Origin: Anaerostipes rhamnosivorans
Lineage (GTDB): Bacteria > Bacillota > Clostridia > Lachnospirales > Lachnospiraceae
Direction: 5' to 3'
Assembly: GCF_005280655.1 (NCBI RefSeq)
Contig: NZ_CP040058.1
Location: forward strand, 343,001-407,000
Length of the DNA stretch: 64,000 nt
In this document: positions 14,664-19,795 of the stretch, in pieces
Layout of the letters: each line of letters begins with the position of its first letter
Numbering within the stretch: the stretch's first letter is position 1
Translations under genes and position numbers: made by a program
The notes under the pieces: generated by a model
Database searches by the model: none
What the model saw: only the letters and a program-made list of their open reading frames with translations
What the model was told of the DNA's origin: nothing

Positions 14664-14736
14664 ACAAACAAAAGACCCCGCATGCCTGCGGGGTCTTTAA
14701 TGAAAAGAGAGGATTAAAATATATATGAAAAACTAT
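14664..14736 (-). ncRNA. Putative small RNA, copy 1 of a paralogous pair
   Basis: Read on the minus strand, a promoter at 14743-14770 is followed by a conserved leader that includes TTAAGACATAGTTTTTCAT and then AATCCTCTCTTTT. It ends in a strong GC-rich terminator hairpin (14671-14698, stem AAAGACCCCGCA, loop 4) with a TTTTGTTTG tail. The predicted RNA is about 73 nt. No coding gene lies on this strand here; the nearest minus-strand gene ends at 14833 upstream. A diverged second copy lies at 19686 on the plus strand. The UCCUCUCU stretch could pair with Shine-Dalgarno sequences. Confidence 0.6.
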
Positions 14737-14742
14737 GTCTTA

Positions 14743-14770
14743 AGTATATCAGTTTTATATCCGAATACAA
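14743..14770 (-). promoter_or_regulatory. Sigma-A-type promoter of putative small RNA 1
   Basis: On the minus strand TTGTAT (14765-14770) and TATACT (14743-14748) are 16 bases apart. The same spacing and boxes occur in the second copy at 19652-19679. A shared TTTAGAATTGTTTA block lies about 15 bases upstream of both. Confidence 0.6.
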
Positions 14771-14832
14771 TGTATAGAAACTAAACAATTCTAAACATCC
14801 TATAAACAAACATTAAGAAAGTCTTGTGTTTC

Positions 14833-15312
14833 TTATGGAAGGATAGGGTGGCTTTTTATATAGTCCTCCATAATGTAAGCGGCACAGCCGACGATCTGGG
14901 CACAGGGACGCTTCTTATAATAATCTTTTGTGCGTTCCTCAGGGACGTAGGTTTCCTTTTTCTGCTCCAGGCCCAGCAGTTCGCGGCAGACGATGGAGCC
15001 GTTTACATCTTCAAATGAGCGGGCAAGTTCCTGGATGTGCCTGTAATGCTCTGTCTTGGCTTGGCGGTCAGTGGGGGAATCGTATCCGTACAGGATACCG
15101 GCAGCAAGAAACATACCGCTGACGGATCCGCAGACCTCCCGGAGTCTTCCCATACCTCCGCCGAAAGAAGAACTCAATCTCAGTGCGGTCTTCCTGTCCA
15201 TATCATAGAGGTCCTGGAAGGCCAGAAATACAGACTGGGAACAGTTGTAGCCTTCTTTAAATAAATCCATGGCCTTTTGGGCATATTGACTGGAAGTGAG
15301 ATCAATGTTCAT
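14833..15312 (-). CDS. C_GCAxxG_C_C family redox-associated protein
   Basis: This 159-residue protein has the spaced cysteine pattern of the family: GYNCSQSVFLAF, SSFGGGMGRLREVCGSVSGMFLAAG, IVCRELLG and CAQIVGCAAYIMEDYI. Members are thought to be redox or metal-binding proteins, but no reaction is established. I place the start at 15312 because the ATG there has AAGGAG upstream; the longer frame to 15399 runs into the tRNA leader region. It lies just downstream of tRNA-Lys on the same strand and may share its transcript. Confidence 0.85.
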   Translation of the reverse strand: MNIDLTSSQYAQKAMDLFKEGYNCSQSVFLAFQDLYDMDRKTALRLSSSFGGGMGRLREVCGSVSGMFLAAGILYGYDSPTDRQAKTEHYRHIQELARSFEDVNGSIVCRELLGLEQKKETYVPEERTKDYYKKRPCAQIVGCAAYIMEDYIKSHPILP

Positions 15313-15418
15313 ATGTGGCTCCTTTTCTTTTGCGTGTTGCGGAAACGGTTTTATCAAATAAAAATATAAACAAAAAACACCATCCCCAGCCCCAAACAAG
15401 CCAAAAATAGTGTTTTAA

Positions 15419-15491
15419 TACGCGATGAGGGGCTCGAACCCTCGACACCCTGATTAAGAGTCAGGTGCTCTACCAACTGAGCTAATCACGC
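15419..15491 (-). tRNA. tRNA-Lys (anticodon CTT)
   Basis: On the minus strand the sequence folds as a 73-nt cloverleaf. The acceptor strand is GCGTGAT, the D-loop is AGCTCAGTTGGTAGAGC, and the anticodon stem-loop is CTGACTCTTAATCAG with CTT at the anticodon. The T-loop is GGTTCGAGCCC. CCA is not encoded. It decodes AAG codons. Confidence 0.96.
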
Positions 15492-15738
15492 TTATTTCTT
15501 TGTGCGCTGCTTTTTCAACGCAAGGATTATTATATATGATGTTTTTGATAATTGCAAGTGAAAAATGAAAATTTTTTTGTATTTTTTTGTCGGCCGTTAA
15601 AAGAAGCCGATATTTTAATCTGATTAAGAGGAAAAGAAGAAGAGCAAAAGCCCCTGGACCCTATACTTTTCCGCATCTTTGTGCTAGAATAAACCCAAAA
15701 TTTGATTGTGCCCTGGGATAGAAGAAGGAGTGTAAAAT

Positions 15739-16902
15739 TTGAAAAATAATAAATTTGAATCCAATAAAAAGTACTTTACCATATCGATTTATTCGATCGT
15801 CGTGATCTTGATCGGATGTATTATTTTCCGTCTGGTGAATAATTGGGCATCGACCATCGGTATCCTGACAGATCTGTGGGATACGATCTTTCCGTTTTTT
15901 ATTGGCTTTCTGATTGCATACGTTATGAATCCGGTTGTGGGTTTCTTTAATGAGAAAGTATTTGTAACATTATTCGGTGAAAAGAGAAAGAAGATTAATC
16001 GGGCAGCGGCGATTCTTACTACCTACATTATATTAGTAGGGGCACTCACCATCTGTCTGATCTTCATTGTTCCTCAGCTCTATGACAGTATCAAAGAGTT
16101 GTCCAATCAGATCCCGGTGATCTCTGATAAGATCATGGGGATGCTGGATCACTACAAGGAGAGCGGTTCCGGACTGATGCCTCCTGAATTGATGGACACA
16201 CTTGAGACCAAAAGCCTGCCGAAGCTTGTGCAGCTGTCCAACCAGATGCTGACGGATGCGATTCCAATGCTCTATAATTTTTCAATATCATTTGTGAAGT
16301 GGTTATTTAATTTGTTTATCGCTTTTGTGGTCTCCATCTATATGACAGCAGATAAGCAGATTTTAAAAAGCTCCTGCCGCAGAATCATTTTCGCTGTTTT
16401 TCCGTATGATGCAGCTGTGCCGGTTATCCACGGACTGAAAGAGTGTCACAACATCTTTTCCGGATATATCATCGGAAAGTCACTAGACTCCCTGATCATC
16501 GGATGTCTCTGTTTCTTTCTTATGAGCATCCTTCATCTTCCCTACACTGTGCTGATCAGTGTCATCGTTGGAGTGACGAACATGATCCCATATTTCGGAC
16601 CGTTTATCGGAGCTGTTCCGGGCGCATTTATCCTGTTTATCGTGAGTCCGTATAAAGCACTGATCTTCCTTGCGATGATCCTGGTTTTGCAGCAGTTTGA
16701 CGGACTGGTACTGGGACCGAAGATCCTGGGCAATTCTACTGGTGTCCGCCCAATCCTGATCCTGTTTTCCATTACAGTGGGAGGTGCTTACTTCGGACCT
16801 TTGGGGATGTTCCTGGGAGTACCGTTTTTTGCAGTGGTACAGTACTTGATCAATAATTGGGTAAACTACAGGCTATACAAAAAGAATCTGAATATCGATT
16901 AG
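15739..16902 (+). CDS. AI-2E family transporter (UPF0118)
   Basis: This 387-residue membrane protein has about eight hydrophobic segments, starting with ISIYSIVVILIGCIIFRLV. The late motifs GVTNMIPYFGPFIGAVPGA and FDGLVLGPKILGNSTGV are those of the AI-2E/PerM family, some members of which are sodium/proton antiporters or export autoinducer-2. The substrate here is unknown. The start is TTG after GAAGGAG. The nitrilase gene follows after 10 bases, so the two are likely one operon. Confidence 0.93.
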   Translation: MKNNKFESNKKYFTISIYSIVVILIGCIIFRLVNNWASTIGILTDLWDTIFPFFIGFLIAYVMNPVVGFFNEKVFVTLFGEKRKKINRAAAILTTYIILVGALTICLIFIVPQLYDSIKELSNQIPVISDKIMGMLDHYKESGSGLMPPELMDTLETKSLPKLVQLSNQMLTDAIPMLYNFSISFVKWLFNLFIAFVVSIYMTADKQILKSSCRRIIFAVFPYDAAVPVIHGLKECHNIFSGYIIGKSLDSLIIGCLCFFLMSILHLPYTVLISVIVGVTNMIPYFGPFIGAVPGAFILFIVSPYKALIFLAMILVLQQFDGLVLGPKILGNSTGVRPILILFSITVGGAYFGPLGMFLGVPFFAVVQYLINNWVNYRLYKKNLNID

Positions 16903-16912
16903 GAGGAAGGAC

Positions 16913-17746
16913 ATGAATCCCGTTGTTGCAATGGTCCAGTGCAGATCCTCTGCAGAGCCGGAGGATAACCTTCAGAAAGCAGAACAGTTCTGCCGGGAAG
17001 GATATGAAAATAATGTGAAGTTTACGATCTTTCCAGAGTACTTTATGACATATTACCCTATGGACAGGGCAGAGTATTACAAGAGAGCGCAGTCTCTTGA
17101 CGGACCGTTTGTCAGAGAGATGAAAAAGCTGTCTGTAAAATATGCGCAATGGATTCTGTTTGGAATGAATGAGAAACCGGAGCGGGAAAGCGGCGGGAAG
17201 TGCTTTAACACTGCTGTTCTCATAGATGATAGTGGAACTGTGCGTTCAGTTTACAGGAAGGCCCATCTGTTTGATGCATTCTCCTGGAGGGAGTCGGAAG
17301 ATACAATGCCGGGAGATGCCTTGCCTGAGCCGGTGGATACTCCGTTCGGAAAGATTGGTCTGGGGATTTGTTATGATCTGAGATTCCCAGAGCCGTCCAG
17401 GATCCAGACATTAAAGGGTGCCGATATGTTAGTCTACCCATCAGCATGGGTGGACGGACCGGATAAGTTTATGCAGTGGGAGACTTTGCTCAGGGCGAGA
17501 GCTATTGAGAACGGCGTGTTTGCCATCGGTTGCTGTCACTACAGCGAAGAACACTATATGGGAAGAAGCCTTGCATTTGATCCTTCTGGTAAAAAGATCG
17601 CAAAGGCCGGCTCCGGTGAGGAGCTTATCGTGCTGACAATCGATACAGAGAAAGCGGCACAGGTCAAAAAGCAGGTGCCTTCCTTAAAAAACCGACGTAC
17701 AGATCTATATGATATTTCCCAGAGAAACAGTGAAAAATCCAAGTAG
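16913..17746 (+). CDS. Carbon-nitrogen hydrolase (nitrilase superfamily)
   Basis: This 277-residue enzyme has the Glu-Lys-Cys triad: Glu42 in FTIFPEYF, the Lys in YRKAHLFD, and the Cys in GLGICYDLRFPE. It matches the Nit/omega-amidase branch, which hydrolyses amides of small acids such as deaminated glutathione or 2-oxoglutaramate. The precise substrate is not shown. The start ATG follows AGGAGGAAGG, 10 bases after the transporter stop. Confidence 0.9.
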   Translation: MNPVVAMVQCRSSAEPEDNLQKAEQFCREGYENNVKFTIFPEYFMTYYPMDRAEYYKRAQSLDGPFVREMKKLSVKYAQWILFGMNEKPERESGGKCFNTAVLIDDSGTVRSVYRKAHLFDAFSWRESEDTMPGDALPEPVDTPFGKIGLGICYDLRFPEPSRIQTLKGADMLVYPSAWVDGPDKFMQWETLLRARAIENGVFAIGCCHYSEEHYMGRSLAFDPSGKKIAKAGSGEELIVLTIDTEKAAQVKKQVPSLKNRRTDLYDISQRNSEKSK

Positions 17747-17766
17747 TAAAAAGGATAGGAGCATAA

Positions 17767-17943
17767 AAATTCAAACTGGAAGGAGACCGATTATATCGAG
17801 AGTATGCAGAGGAAAAATTACCTCTATGTGAGACAGAGCAGGTTCCAGTGCCCTATGACAATGGACGAGCTCAGCGGGAAGATAAAAAGATCCCGTTAAG
17901 CAAAGGAAGAATAGAAGGACTGAGAAAATATTATGGCTTTTAG
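17767..17943 (+). pseudogene. Start-less open frame, possible gene remnant
   Basis: A 58-codon frame opens after a TAA and stops at 17941-17943. It reads as charged, protein-like sequence (EYAEEKLPLCETEQVPV, then RIEGLRKYYGF at the end) but has no ATG, GTG or TTG start. I do not recognise it. It may be the tail of a deleted gene or chance. Confidence 0.25.
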
Positions 17944-17983
17944 CAGCTCTTTTCATGATCCATATGTATCCATTTATCAAATA

Positions 17984-18011
17984 TTGATTGTATCCACCCC
18001 CAAAATACAAT
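17984..18011 (+). promoter_or_regulatory. Likely promoter of the ABC-2 exporter operon
   Basis: TTGATT (17984-17989) and TACAAT (18006-18011) are 16 bases apart, 30 bases before the start of the ATPase gene. The two boxes fit a sigma-A promoter. Confidence 0.5.
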
Positions 18012-18041
18012 AGAATGCAAATATAACGAGGAGGTATTTAC

Positions 18042-18887
18042 ATGAATCAAGACTGCATTACAATGGAACACGTGGGCATTGCATTTCAGGACAAAAAGGC
18101 GTTGAGCGATGTCAATATAAAAGTATCCGAGGGAGAAATCTTTGGATTTCTAGGACCCAGCGGTGCTGGAAAAACAACGACCATCAAGTTATTGAGTGCA
18201 CAGCTGACCCAGTATACAGGACAGATTTCTGTCATGGGAATGGAGCCCATGAAGAATGTCAGCGCACTGTACCAGAATATTGGAATTTTATCTGACAACA
18301 GCGGTTTCTATGAGAAGATGTCTGTGGAGGAAAACTTAAAGATCTTTGCGGAGATCTACAGGCTTCCGAAAACGAGGATTCCAGAGGTGTTGGAACAGCT
18401 CCATCTTGCCGGTGACGAAAAGAAAAAGGCCGAAAAGCTTTCCCGCGGAATGAAACAGCGGCTGCTGTTTGCCAGGGCTATCCTGCACAAACCTAAACTT
18501 CTGTTTCTGGACGAACCAACGGCCAATCTGGACCCGTCTACAAGTGAAGATGTACATAATATCATCAAAGACCTGAACAAAAACGGAACGACAGTGTTCC
18601 TCACCACACATGACATGGAAGAAGCGGATGAACTCTGCAGCAGAGTGGCATTCCTCAATGAGGGGAGCATCAAAGAGGTCGGTGTTCCTGAGGAATTAAA
18701 GATCAAGTATGCAAAAGACAAGGTGCGGGTCCTCTACGGAGACGGCACGGTAAAAGAGTTACCGAAAGACAAAGAATCCATAGCCAGTGAACTTTCCCGT
18801 ACAGACAAAGAGATTGTGACCATCCATTCAGTGGAACCCGACTTAAAAACTATTTTCTTAGATCTGACAGGGAGGGAATTAGCATGA
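18042..18887 (+). CDS. ABC transporter ATP-binding protein
   Basis: This 281-residue ATPase has Walker A GPSGAGKTT near residues 37-45, a signature LSRGMKQRL and Walker B LLFLDEPTANLDPSTSED. The final 70 residues form the short C-terminal extension common in ABC-2 exporters. It powers the permease encoded next, whose ATG overlaps its stop by 4 bases. The substrate is unknown; similar pairs export antibiotics, peptides or lipids. Start ATG follows CGAGGAGG. Confidence 0.93.
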   Translation: MNQDCITMEHVGIAFQDKKALSDVNIKVSEGEIFGFLGPSGAGKTTTIKLLSAQLTQYTGQISVMGMEPMKNVSALYQNIGILSDNSGFYEKMSVEENLKIFAEIYRLPKTRIPEVLEQLHLAGDEKKKAEKLSRGMKQRLLFARAILHKPKLLFLDEPTANLDPSTSEDVHNIIKDLNKNGTTVFLTTHDMEEADELCSRVAFLNEGSIKEVGVPEELKIKYAKDKVRVLYGDGTVKELPKDKESIASELSRTDKEIVTIHSVEPDLKTIFLDLTGRELA

Positions 18888-19615
18888 AATTAAGAGGACG
18901 AATTATAAAGGCACTGATGAAAAAGGATTTCCGTATGCTCTCAGGCAATAAAAATGCCTTCTTTATCCTTCTCCTTCCGATTTTGTTTTGTGTGCTTTAC
19001 ACAAAGGTTCTGCCCATCGGAGACCAGGCGGGACAGATCTACCCTCTGGCTCTCTGTGAAGTGCTGAATCTGGTTTGTGCGCCGATCTCTCTGCTCAGTA
19101 TGATGGTAGCGGAAGAGAAAGAGAAGAATACTCTCCGGACATTGATCATGTCTGATGTGAGAGCCATGGAGTTTCTGGCAAGCAAGATGTTTGTAGTGCT
19201 CCTTCTGATGGAAGTGGTCTCTGTTGCAAATTTCCTGATCGTAGGGATCGGCATGAAGTATTTTGCGGGATACCTGCTCATTTCCACTCTGGCATCCATA
19301 GGGATCCTGTTTCTGGGAGCTTCTGTCGGCATCATGTCAGAAAATCAGATGTCCACCGGGACGATCTCCACGCCGTTGATGCTCTTATTGATGCTGCCAC
19401 CGATGTTTGCGGGGATGAATAACGTTCTGGAAAAGATTGCGTTCTGTCTTCCGACAAACGCGTTTGTTGAGATCATGAACAGGGAATATTACCAAAAAGC
19501 GGCATTCCTCTCCGGAAGCAATCTGAAGTATTACGCAGTCTGTCTCGTATGGATTCTGATCGGCATTGTAGTGTTTAACATTATCTATAAAAAAAGAGGC
19601 GTTGACAGCCAATAG
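18884..19615 (+). CDS. ABC-2 type transporter permease
   Basis: This 243-residue protein has about six membrane segments, including AFFILLLPILFCVLYTKV, VVLLLMEVVSVANFLIVGI and LLLMLPPMFAGM. It pairs with the ATPase just upstream, with a 4-base overlap that suggests translational coupling. The pattern PTNAFVEIMN and a closing hydrophobic segment fit half-size ABC-2 exporters. No substrate can be assigned. Confidence 0.9.
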   Translation: MKLRGRIIKALMKKDFRMLSGNKNAFFILLLPILFCVLYTKVLPIGDQAGQIYPLALCEVLNLVCAPISLLSMMVAEEKEKNTLRTLIMSDVRAMEFLASKMFVVLLLMEVVSVANFLIVGIGMKYFAGYLLISTLASIGILFLGASVGIMSENQMSTGTISTPLMLLLMLPPMFAGMNNVLEKIAFCLPTNAFVEIMNREYYQKAAFLSGSNLKYYAVCLVWILIGIVVFNIIYKKRGVDSQ

Positions 19616-19651
19616 TTTATAATATATTTAGAATTGTTTATTTTCTATATA

Positions 19652-19679
19652 TTGTTTTAAGAGGAAAAGTTGGTATACT
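19652..19679 (+). promoter_or_regulatory. Sigma-A-type promoter of putative small RNA 2
   Basis: TTGTTT (19652-19657) and TATACT (19674-19679) are 16 bases apart, matching the promoter of copy 1. The upstream TTTAGAATTGTTTA block is shared too, which suggests a common activator or UP-like element. Confidence 0.6.
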
Positions 19680-19685
19680 TAAGAC

Positions 19686-19795
19686 ATAGTTTTTCATATA
19701 TACTTAATCCTCTCTTTTTAAAATGCTCTGCCGGTTACAGAGCACATATTGTAAGCAGGTTAGTGCCGGAAGGAATTCCGGCACTGATTTTTTAT
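19686..19795 (+). ncRNA. Putative small RNA, copy 2 of a paralogous pair
   Basis: The predicted transcript begins near 19686 and shares with copy 1 a leader ending AATCCTCTCTTTTT. A first hairpin (19724-19744, TGCTCTG with CAGAGCA) lacks a T run. A second hairpin (19762-19785, AGTGCCGGA with TCCGGCACT) is followed by GATTTTTTATT and is the likely terminator. It lies in the gap between convergent genes (ABC permease and the acetyltransferase). No coding gene follows on this strand within range. Confidence 0.55.

Follow-up and report, generated by a model that had tools for sequence, protein, structure and literature searches.

What purpose do two short, similar intergenic units serve in the genome of Anaerostipes rhamnosivorans, a member of the Lachnospiraceae, which are major butyrate producers of the gut? 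They lie in a stretch of 64,000 nucleotides (contig NZ_CP040058.1, positions 343,001 to 407,000), which we refer to as the window. A sequence-only reading of this DNA had described them as a paralogous pair of small RNA (sRNA) genes carrying a stretch complementary to the Shine-Dalgarno (SD) sequence, an anti-SD. That observation is correct but understated: the units belong to a family with six copies in this genome, present throughout the genus. Its members are probably regulator-controlled sibling sRNAs that act in trans and block translation initiation, working much like the csRNAs of streptococci and the LhrC RNAs of Listeria.

Copy 1 is encoded on the minus strand and copy 2 on the plus strand, with the following parts:

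14781..14806, minus strand: upstream box of copy 1, TTTATAGGATGTTTAGAATTGTTTAG, with three half-sites (promoter alignment and box searches)
14765..14770, minus strand: -35 element of copy 1, TTGTAT
14743..14748, minus strand: -10 element of copy 1, TATACT, 16-bp spacer from the -35
14665..14736, minus strand: predicted RNA of copy 1, about 72 nucleotides (its start deduced from the position of the -10, its end from that of the terminator)
14703..14732, minus strand: conserved anti-start-site leader of copy 1 (alignment and pairing computation)
14671..14698, minus strand: terminator hairpin of copy 1, followed by a T tail
19616..19641, plus strand: upstream box of copy 2, TTTATAATATATTTAGAATTGTTTAT (promoter alignment and box searches)
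19652..19657, plus strand: -35 element of copy 2, TTGTTT
19674..19679, plus strand: -10 element of copy 2, TATACT, 16-bp spacer from the -35
19686..19794, plus strand: predicted RNA of copy 2, about 109 nucleotides (putative start)
19690..19718, plus strand: conserved anti-start-site leader of copy 2 (alignment and pairing computation)
19724..19744, plus strand: extra small hairpin of copy 2 (predicted fold)
19759..19788, plus strand: terminator hairpin of copy 2, followed by a T run

Positions, promoter elements and their spacing are as the sequence-only reading had given them, and the sequences TTTAGAATTGTTTA, AAGACATAG and AATCCTCTCTTTT are indeed common to both units. Each ends, as claimed, in a hairpin with a T-rich tail (-21.4 kcal/mol in copy 1; -20.9 kcal/mol in copy 2, where the smaller hairpin precedes it). 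Both are intergenic in the window, and neither precedes a gene of its own direction, the next gene downstream being convergent at each. A blastn search of the genome (one 3.59-Mb contig) with copy 2 retrieved copy 1 at an E value of 4e-24, so their likeness is not due to chance. The two are therefore related as proposed, but they are two of six: copies lie at about 357.7 and 362.7 kb (the window pair), 1116.5, 2983.7, 3408.6 and 3410.8 kb.

The sequence-only reading had also named conservation in related genomes beforehand as a test that its proposal might fail, and the proposal passed. Leader and promoter are kept at 64 loci in all 11 Anaerostipes genomes, with two to nine per genome, some of them tandem or clustered. 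These were found with a sequence model (R1) built from eight copies and searched in genomes of the genus, the family and the order; it gave 66 matches, of which two without the leader were not counted. On a contig of Anaerostipes hominis BG01, which also has the closest named relative of a neighbouring gene (96% identity), the two window copies recur with order and orientation unchanged. Outside the genus, where the model was run on 26 further genomes of the family and on 24 from the order's other families, it gave weak matches only, in two genomes: two loci in G025, rejected for want of the leader, and one in G019, which is absent from the later model match list.

What is conserved in these copies is a mosaic. 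In an alignment of 55 of the 62 prepared rows (A4; 54 from the genus and one from the Lachnospiraceae genome G217, near-identical orthologues being left out), the box, the -35, the -10 and the leader are kept, while the promoter spacer and the terminators are not; the claim that promoter and leader are kept while the transcript bodies differ thus holds across the genus. The leader has the architecture UUUUUCAUAUA-(n)-UUAAUCCUCUCUUUU and is longer than the anti-SD stretch. Its blocks TTTTTCATATA and TTAATCCTCTCTTTT are invariant in all 55 rows, the invariance extending over 26 bases, and the second block lies 13 to 19 bases from the start of the leader (a row whose first block is false being left out). 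Of 62 copies scored by script, 60 have an intrinsic terminator, with 58 different hairpins; the 60 include the truncated copy L162, to which a wrong hairpin was assigned. Of the two copies scored without one, L145 stands at a contig end and L140:3906 has no T directly behind its hairpin; two more were left unscored, one at a contig end (L159) and one merged into a neighbouring copy (L169:3945). The predicted RNAs measure 64 to 113 nucleotides (median 78), and the longest forward open reading frame that closes within one has nine codons. In Anaerostipes, the leader has no predicted structure: its mean unpaired probability is 0.94, that of the anti-SD 0.97, with 0.49 as the lowest anti-SD value (n = 59).

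Upstream of the -35, the promoters share an array of half-sites, TTTATA, TTTAGA and TTTAT, 11 and 10 bases apart. The shared upstream block noticed earlier is real, but it forms only a part of this array. Of the 55 aligned promoters, 42 have TTTA[AGT][AG] at -58 and 47 have it at -47; the TTG of the -35 holds one fixed place in 47 and is one base off in the other eight, 38 have an extended -10 TG, and the bases between -35 and -10 are far less conserved than the box and the two elements. Such half-site spacing suits a tandem-binding OmpR-type regulator, and a response regulator of this candidate class is probably the activator that binds there. At the four loci whose gene lists were read, the copies have different neighbours, with no fixed neighbour gene or nearby two-component system. 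One might instead take the box for an A/T-rich UP element: the promoter would then be strong and constitutive and need no regulator, which could leave the RNA mechanism intact. Most of its positions are indeed A/T only, and the regulator is a putative one; nevertheless, we consider this quite unlikely, since specific letters are kept at a spacing of about 11 and 10 bases and since in other genera another direct repeat, of 11 bases, stands close to the -10.

In 55 of the 64 copies, exactly 16 bases separate the -10 from the leader, which leaves no room for a 5' stem. Eight others carry 30 to 64 additional bases between -10 and leader that fold as a hairpin, and one is cut off by a contig end. 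The members of this 5'-hairpin subclass (L023, L153, L154, L166, L170, L171, L173 and L174, as well as L288 and L291) differ in sequence and agree in the place of the hairpin. As a separate observation, promoter spacers (e.g. L176:3916-4040 and L165:3942-4075) often contain GAGAGGATT, the exact complement of AATCCTCTC in the leader, outside the predicted RNA.

Beyond the genus, the exact leader pattern occurs in three of 397 Lachnospiraceae genomes, namely two Anaerostipes and G217. In G217, leader and box are present in four copies, two of which also contain a 5' hairpin insert; its terminators at L275 and L291 were identified by eye, the script having picked wrong hairpins. A model that includes diverged members (R3; alignment A5, 24 of 28 prepared rows) matched 49 of the 397 genomes at E values of up to 0.02; the best loci were read (L301-L324), and many of the matches are chance-like. 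The pattern TTTTCATATATTTKAATCCTCTC, with up to two mismatches, gave 15 matches in 11 of the genomes, against four for the reversed control. Loci with leader and terminator are present in G140, G104, G074, G214, G367 (which starts at a contig edge), G185, G196 and G209, so that, with G217, nine genera besides Anaerostipes hold the leader, ten in all. Diverged loci in G088, G125 and G263 have the same plan with C-rich leaders. The pattern matches in G113 and G335 were not counted, having no convincing promoter or terminator, and L277 and L281 were judged to be chance.

In several of these genera, the TTTATA box is replaced by GAACACA-like half-site pairs, 11 bases apart and adjoining the -10. 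The script detected full pairs in G140, G104, G185 and one G196 copy; degenerate pairs were recognised by eye in G074, G214 and other G196 copies. G209 (L301/L333) has ATTAAG-N5-ATTAAG farther upstream instead, which fits the half-site spacing of streptococcal CiaR. That the promoter class is swapped while the leader stays is the strongest sign in our data that the leader works as RNA.

There are two further explanations. The units might be a functionless dispersed repeat spread by copying, as several similar intergenic copies, some tandem or clustered, could suggest. Given the mosaic conservation across the genus, the leader kept in nine other genera and a promoter-plus-leader sequence that, for the one copy searched, has no match in phage or plasmid collections, we regard this as highly improbable. 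Alternatively, the reverse strand could code for short peptides: it reads AAAAGAGAGGA and then ATG AAA AAC TAT..., with a good SD ahead, and 32 of the 61 frames read on this strand are 19 codons long. The other 29 range from 3 to 46 codons, however, hairpin-insert copies give other peptides, and the frame length is set by the fixed promoter geometry. Bases are fixed over leader and -10 including third codon positions, the middle of the peptide falls in the unconserved spacer, and in other genera the promoter region differs while the leader stays, all of which makes a coding function scarcely credible.

How, then, could the leader work? Its reverse complement, AAAAGAGAGGATTAA-n-TATATGAAAAAC, resembles a full ribosome binding site with start codon and AAA second codon. 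The sequence-only reading had proposed pairing with ribosome binding sites; the anti-SD complementarity stands, but this view was too narrow, as the leader matches the whole start region (SD, spacer and AUG AAA AA). We computed its pairing with a set of 361 gene starts, 77 of them from the own genome, which were taken from the window and from loci of the 11 genomes. Over this set, pairing falls most often on target bases -12 to -8 and on the AUG (83-87% of starts). The mean pairing energy for 120 of the 361 starts is -16.0 kcal/mol, compared with -11.2 kcal/mol inside the same genes. Target prediction against start regions, suggested earlier as a check, thus speaks for the leader as a whole: 40 dinucleotide shuffles reached a mean of -13.6 +/- 0.7 kcal/mol at starts and none equalled the real leader, but no single mRNA was outstanding. 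When only the 5' half was shuffled and the anti-SD kept, 0 of 20 shuffles reached the real leader, and the CAU segment therefore adds to the anti-SD. Starts of the type M[KR][KNR] (n = 45) pair better (-17.6 vs -15.5 kcal/mol, p 0.0003), and those with a hydrophobic N-terminus (n = 115) slightly better (-16.7 vs -15.3 kcal/mol, p 0.005), so that membrane and secreted proteins may be a favoured target class, as a weak computed trend and not a target list.

Several results weigh against a role in blocking translation starts. The gene starts were chosen with an SD preference, which favours any anti-SD, although the shuffles use the same set. In eight of the nine other genera, all but G217, the leader can fold on itself (mean unpaired probability about 0.5-0.6), in a weak 5' hairpin of about -5 kcal/mol in most and -2.3 kcal/mol in G209 that partly covers the anti-SD. 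With up to three mismatches, the box is at no other promoter of the own genome, where the search returned the six copies and one match inside a reading frame (reversed control: three). Strict complement patterns are not enriched either: a GU-tolerant 17-nucleotide pattern with one mismatch gave 48 matches, six of them the family copies themselves, against 55 for the reversed control. The sole stringent match outside reading frames beyond the family is the start of a gene that we take, from sequence likeness, to be dacF; its pairing is moderate (rank 43 of 362), which makes it a weak candidate. Moderate, too, are the two own-genome DUF2207 genes beside copies, with ranks 73 and 62 of 362. No mRNA stands out as a conserved target.

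The dacF match came from the pattern GRGGAT-N3-13-ATATGAAAAA, whose eight matches are six family copies, one site within a reading frame (1517 kb) and this start. For dacF, start regions were compared at seven of the 11 best loci: those of G000, G004 and G009 resemble one another, those of G003, G005, G007 and G008 differ, and a similar start is thus limited to three close relatives among the loci read. There is no perfect single target, since within the own genome the 13-nucleotide complement AAGAGAGGATTAA is confined to the six copies.

An invariant leader and the lack of a conserved strong target are also what one would expect if the RNAs were ligands or sponges for a protein that recognises the leader, such as a ribosomal protein, an initiation factor or an RNA chaperone, mRNA pairing being secondary; invariance over 26 bases in 55 rows is stricter than scattered targets seem to require. 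Against this stand the identity of the leader as a start-region complement and the fact that each of its halves improves the pairing with genuine gene starts. Sibling sRNAs can moreover have pairing regions that are themselves nearly invariant, as do the Qrr sRNAs of Vibrio, sibling copies under a shared regulator with a pairing region of about 30 nucleotides, which differ in their sigma-54 promoters, Hfq dependence and phylum. All in all, we think a protein ligand unlikely.

Streptococci have several csRNA copies, which combine a TTTAAG-N5-TTTAAG site and a terminator with an unpaired anti-SD and anti-AUG (PMC3091779, PMC4507080, PMC8186281). Our family resembles these RNAs of the CiaRH regulon, the csRNAs or Ccn RNAs, in its several similar intergenic copies per genome with intrinsic terminators, in a direct-repeat regulator site with an 11-base period, and in the unpaired anti-SD and anti-AUG that the pairing profile gives for Anaerostipes (PMC3091779, PMC8186281). 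The earlier comparison with csRNAs therefore fits in plan, but not as membership: the CiaR repeat NTTAAG-N5-NTTAAG is found in 0 of 55 promoters (G209 has one such locus among the other genera), most copies lack a 5' stem-loop, so that no two stem-loops flank the unpaired region, the box sits upstream of a separate -35, and the hosts are Clostridia rather than Bacilli. The LhrC RNAs are likewise multicopy, with five copies under the control of one response regulator, LisR of LisRK, and CU-rich anti-SD motifs (PMC4132741). Instead of three UCCC motifs, however, there is here one invariant 5' leader with UCCUCUC and no UCCC in 55 rows; most copies have no loop A, and terminator loops with CCCTCCCC occur only in G074 and G104 (L328 and L327), possibly as a second anti-SD as in the LhrC terminator loop. 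Judged by these sequence features, the family belongs with neither, though it is alike in plan.

At gathering score, Rfam 15 finds one tRNA only in the whole window and nothing in 12 loci from other genera, and lax searches with both units gave sub-threshold matches only, taken as chance. Among the matches listed for titles and abstract openings in the open-access literature, we found no report of such sRNAs for Anaerostipes, of clostridial sibling sRNAs or of Lachnospiraceae regulatory RNAs.

We therefore favour regulator-controlled sibling sRNAs that would operate as follows. Each copy is a predicted stand-alone gene of about 64-113 nucleotides, and a DNA-binding activator, probably of the OmpR type, would bind the phased half-sites and turn all copies on together. 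The Anaerostipes transcript, ending at its copy's own terminator, would expose the unpaired leader, the complement of a full initiation region AAAAGAGAGGAUUAA-n-UAUAUGAAAAA. This leader could pair with the SD, spacer and AUG of an mRNA, by computation best with AUG-AAA-AA starts, and keep ribosomes off, so that the RNAs probably stop some mRNAs from being translated; copy number would set the dose, and MK-type starts of membrane or secreted proteins may be favoured. More doubtful is a wider role as a translation throttle of the Lachnospiraceae, in which up to nine genes, fired together, would damp translation broadly through the complement of a consensus start region rather than address a few mRNAs; from genus to genus, the seed would stay near-fixed and the promoters, 5' hairpins and terminators would be exchanged.

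The family is now defined by its promoters and boundaries, its copies lie in a genus that can be cultured, and its mode of action is predicted. It extends the csRNA/LhrC plan beyond the Bacilli, perhaps by convergence. Because its seed is near-fixed while promoter and terminator change, it offers a good natural test of what anti-start-site RNAs require.

Some minor observations concern the surroundings. Upstream of copy 1 lie ordinary neighbours, a gene for a C_GCAxxG_C_C redox protein and a tRNA gene (window 14833-15315 and 15419-15491, both minus). The region at L022:6552-8857 (own genome 3408-3411 kb) contains two copies 2.2 kb apart as well as two genes for DUF2207 membrane proteins, and a DUF2207-type gene start in G009 (L173:6445-8403) has rank 3 of 362 by leader pairing. 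Box-like half-sites also occur upstream of two protein genes with similar starts (MREKLQRFMIGRYGVDSF... and MRIRDRFLQFMHGRYGADQF...; L309 in G275 and L311 in G023), perhaps further targets of the same kind of regulator. Finally, an sRNA locus stands just upstream of a MI[SN]EFYKEMT-like gene in three genera (L302 in G214, L303 in G074 and L308 in G104), an apparently conserved neighbourhood.

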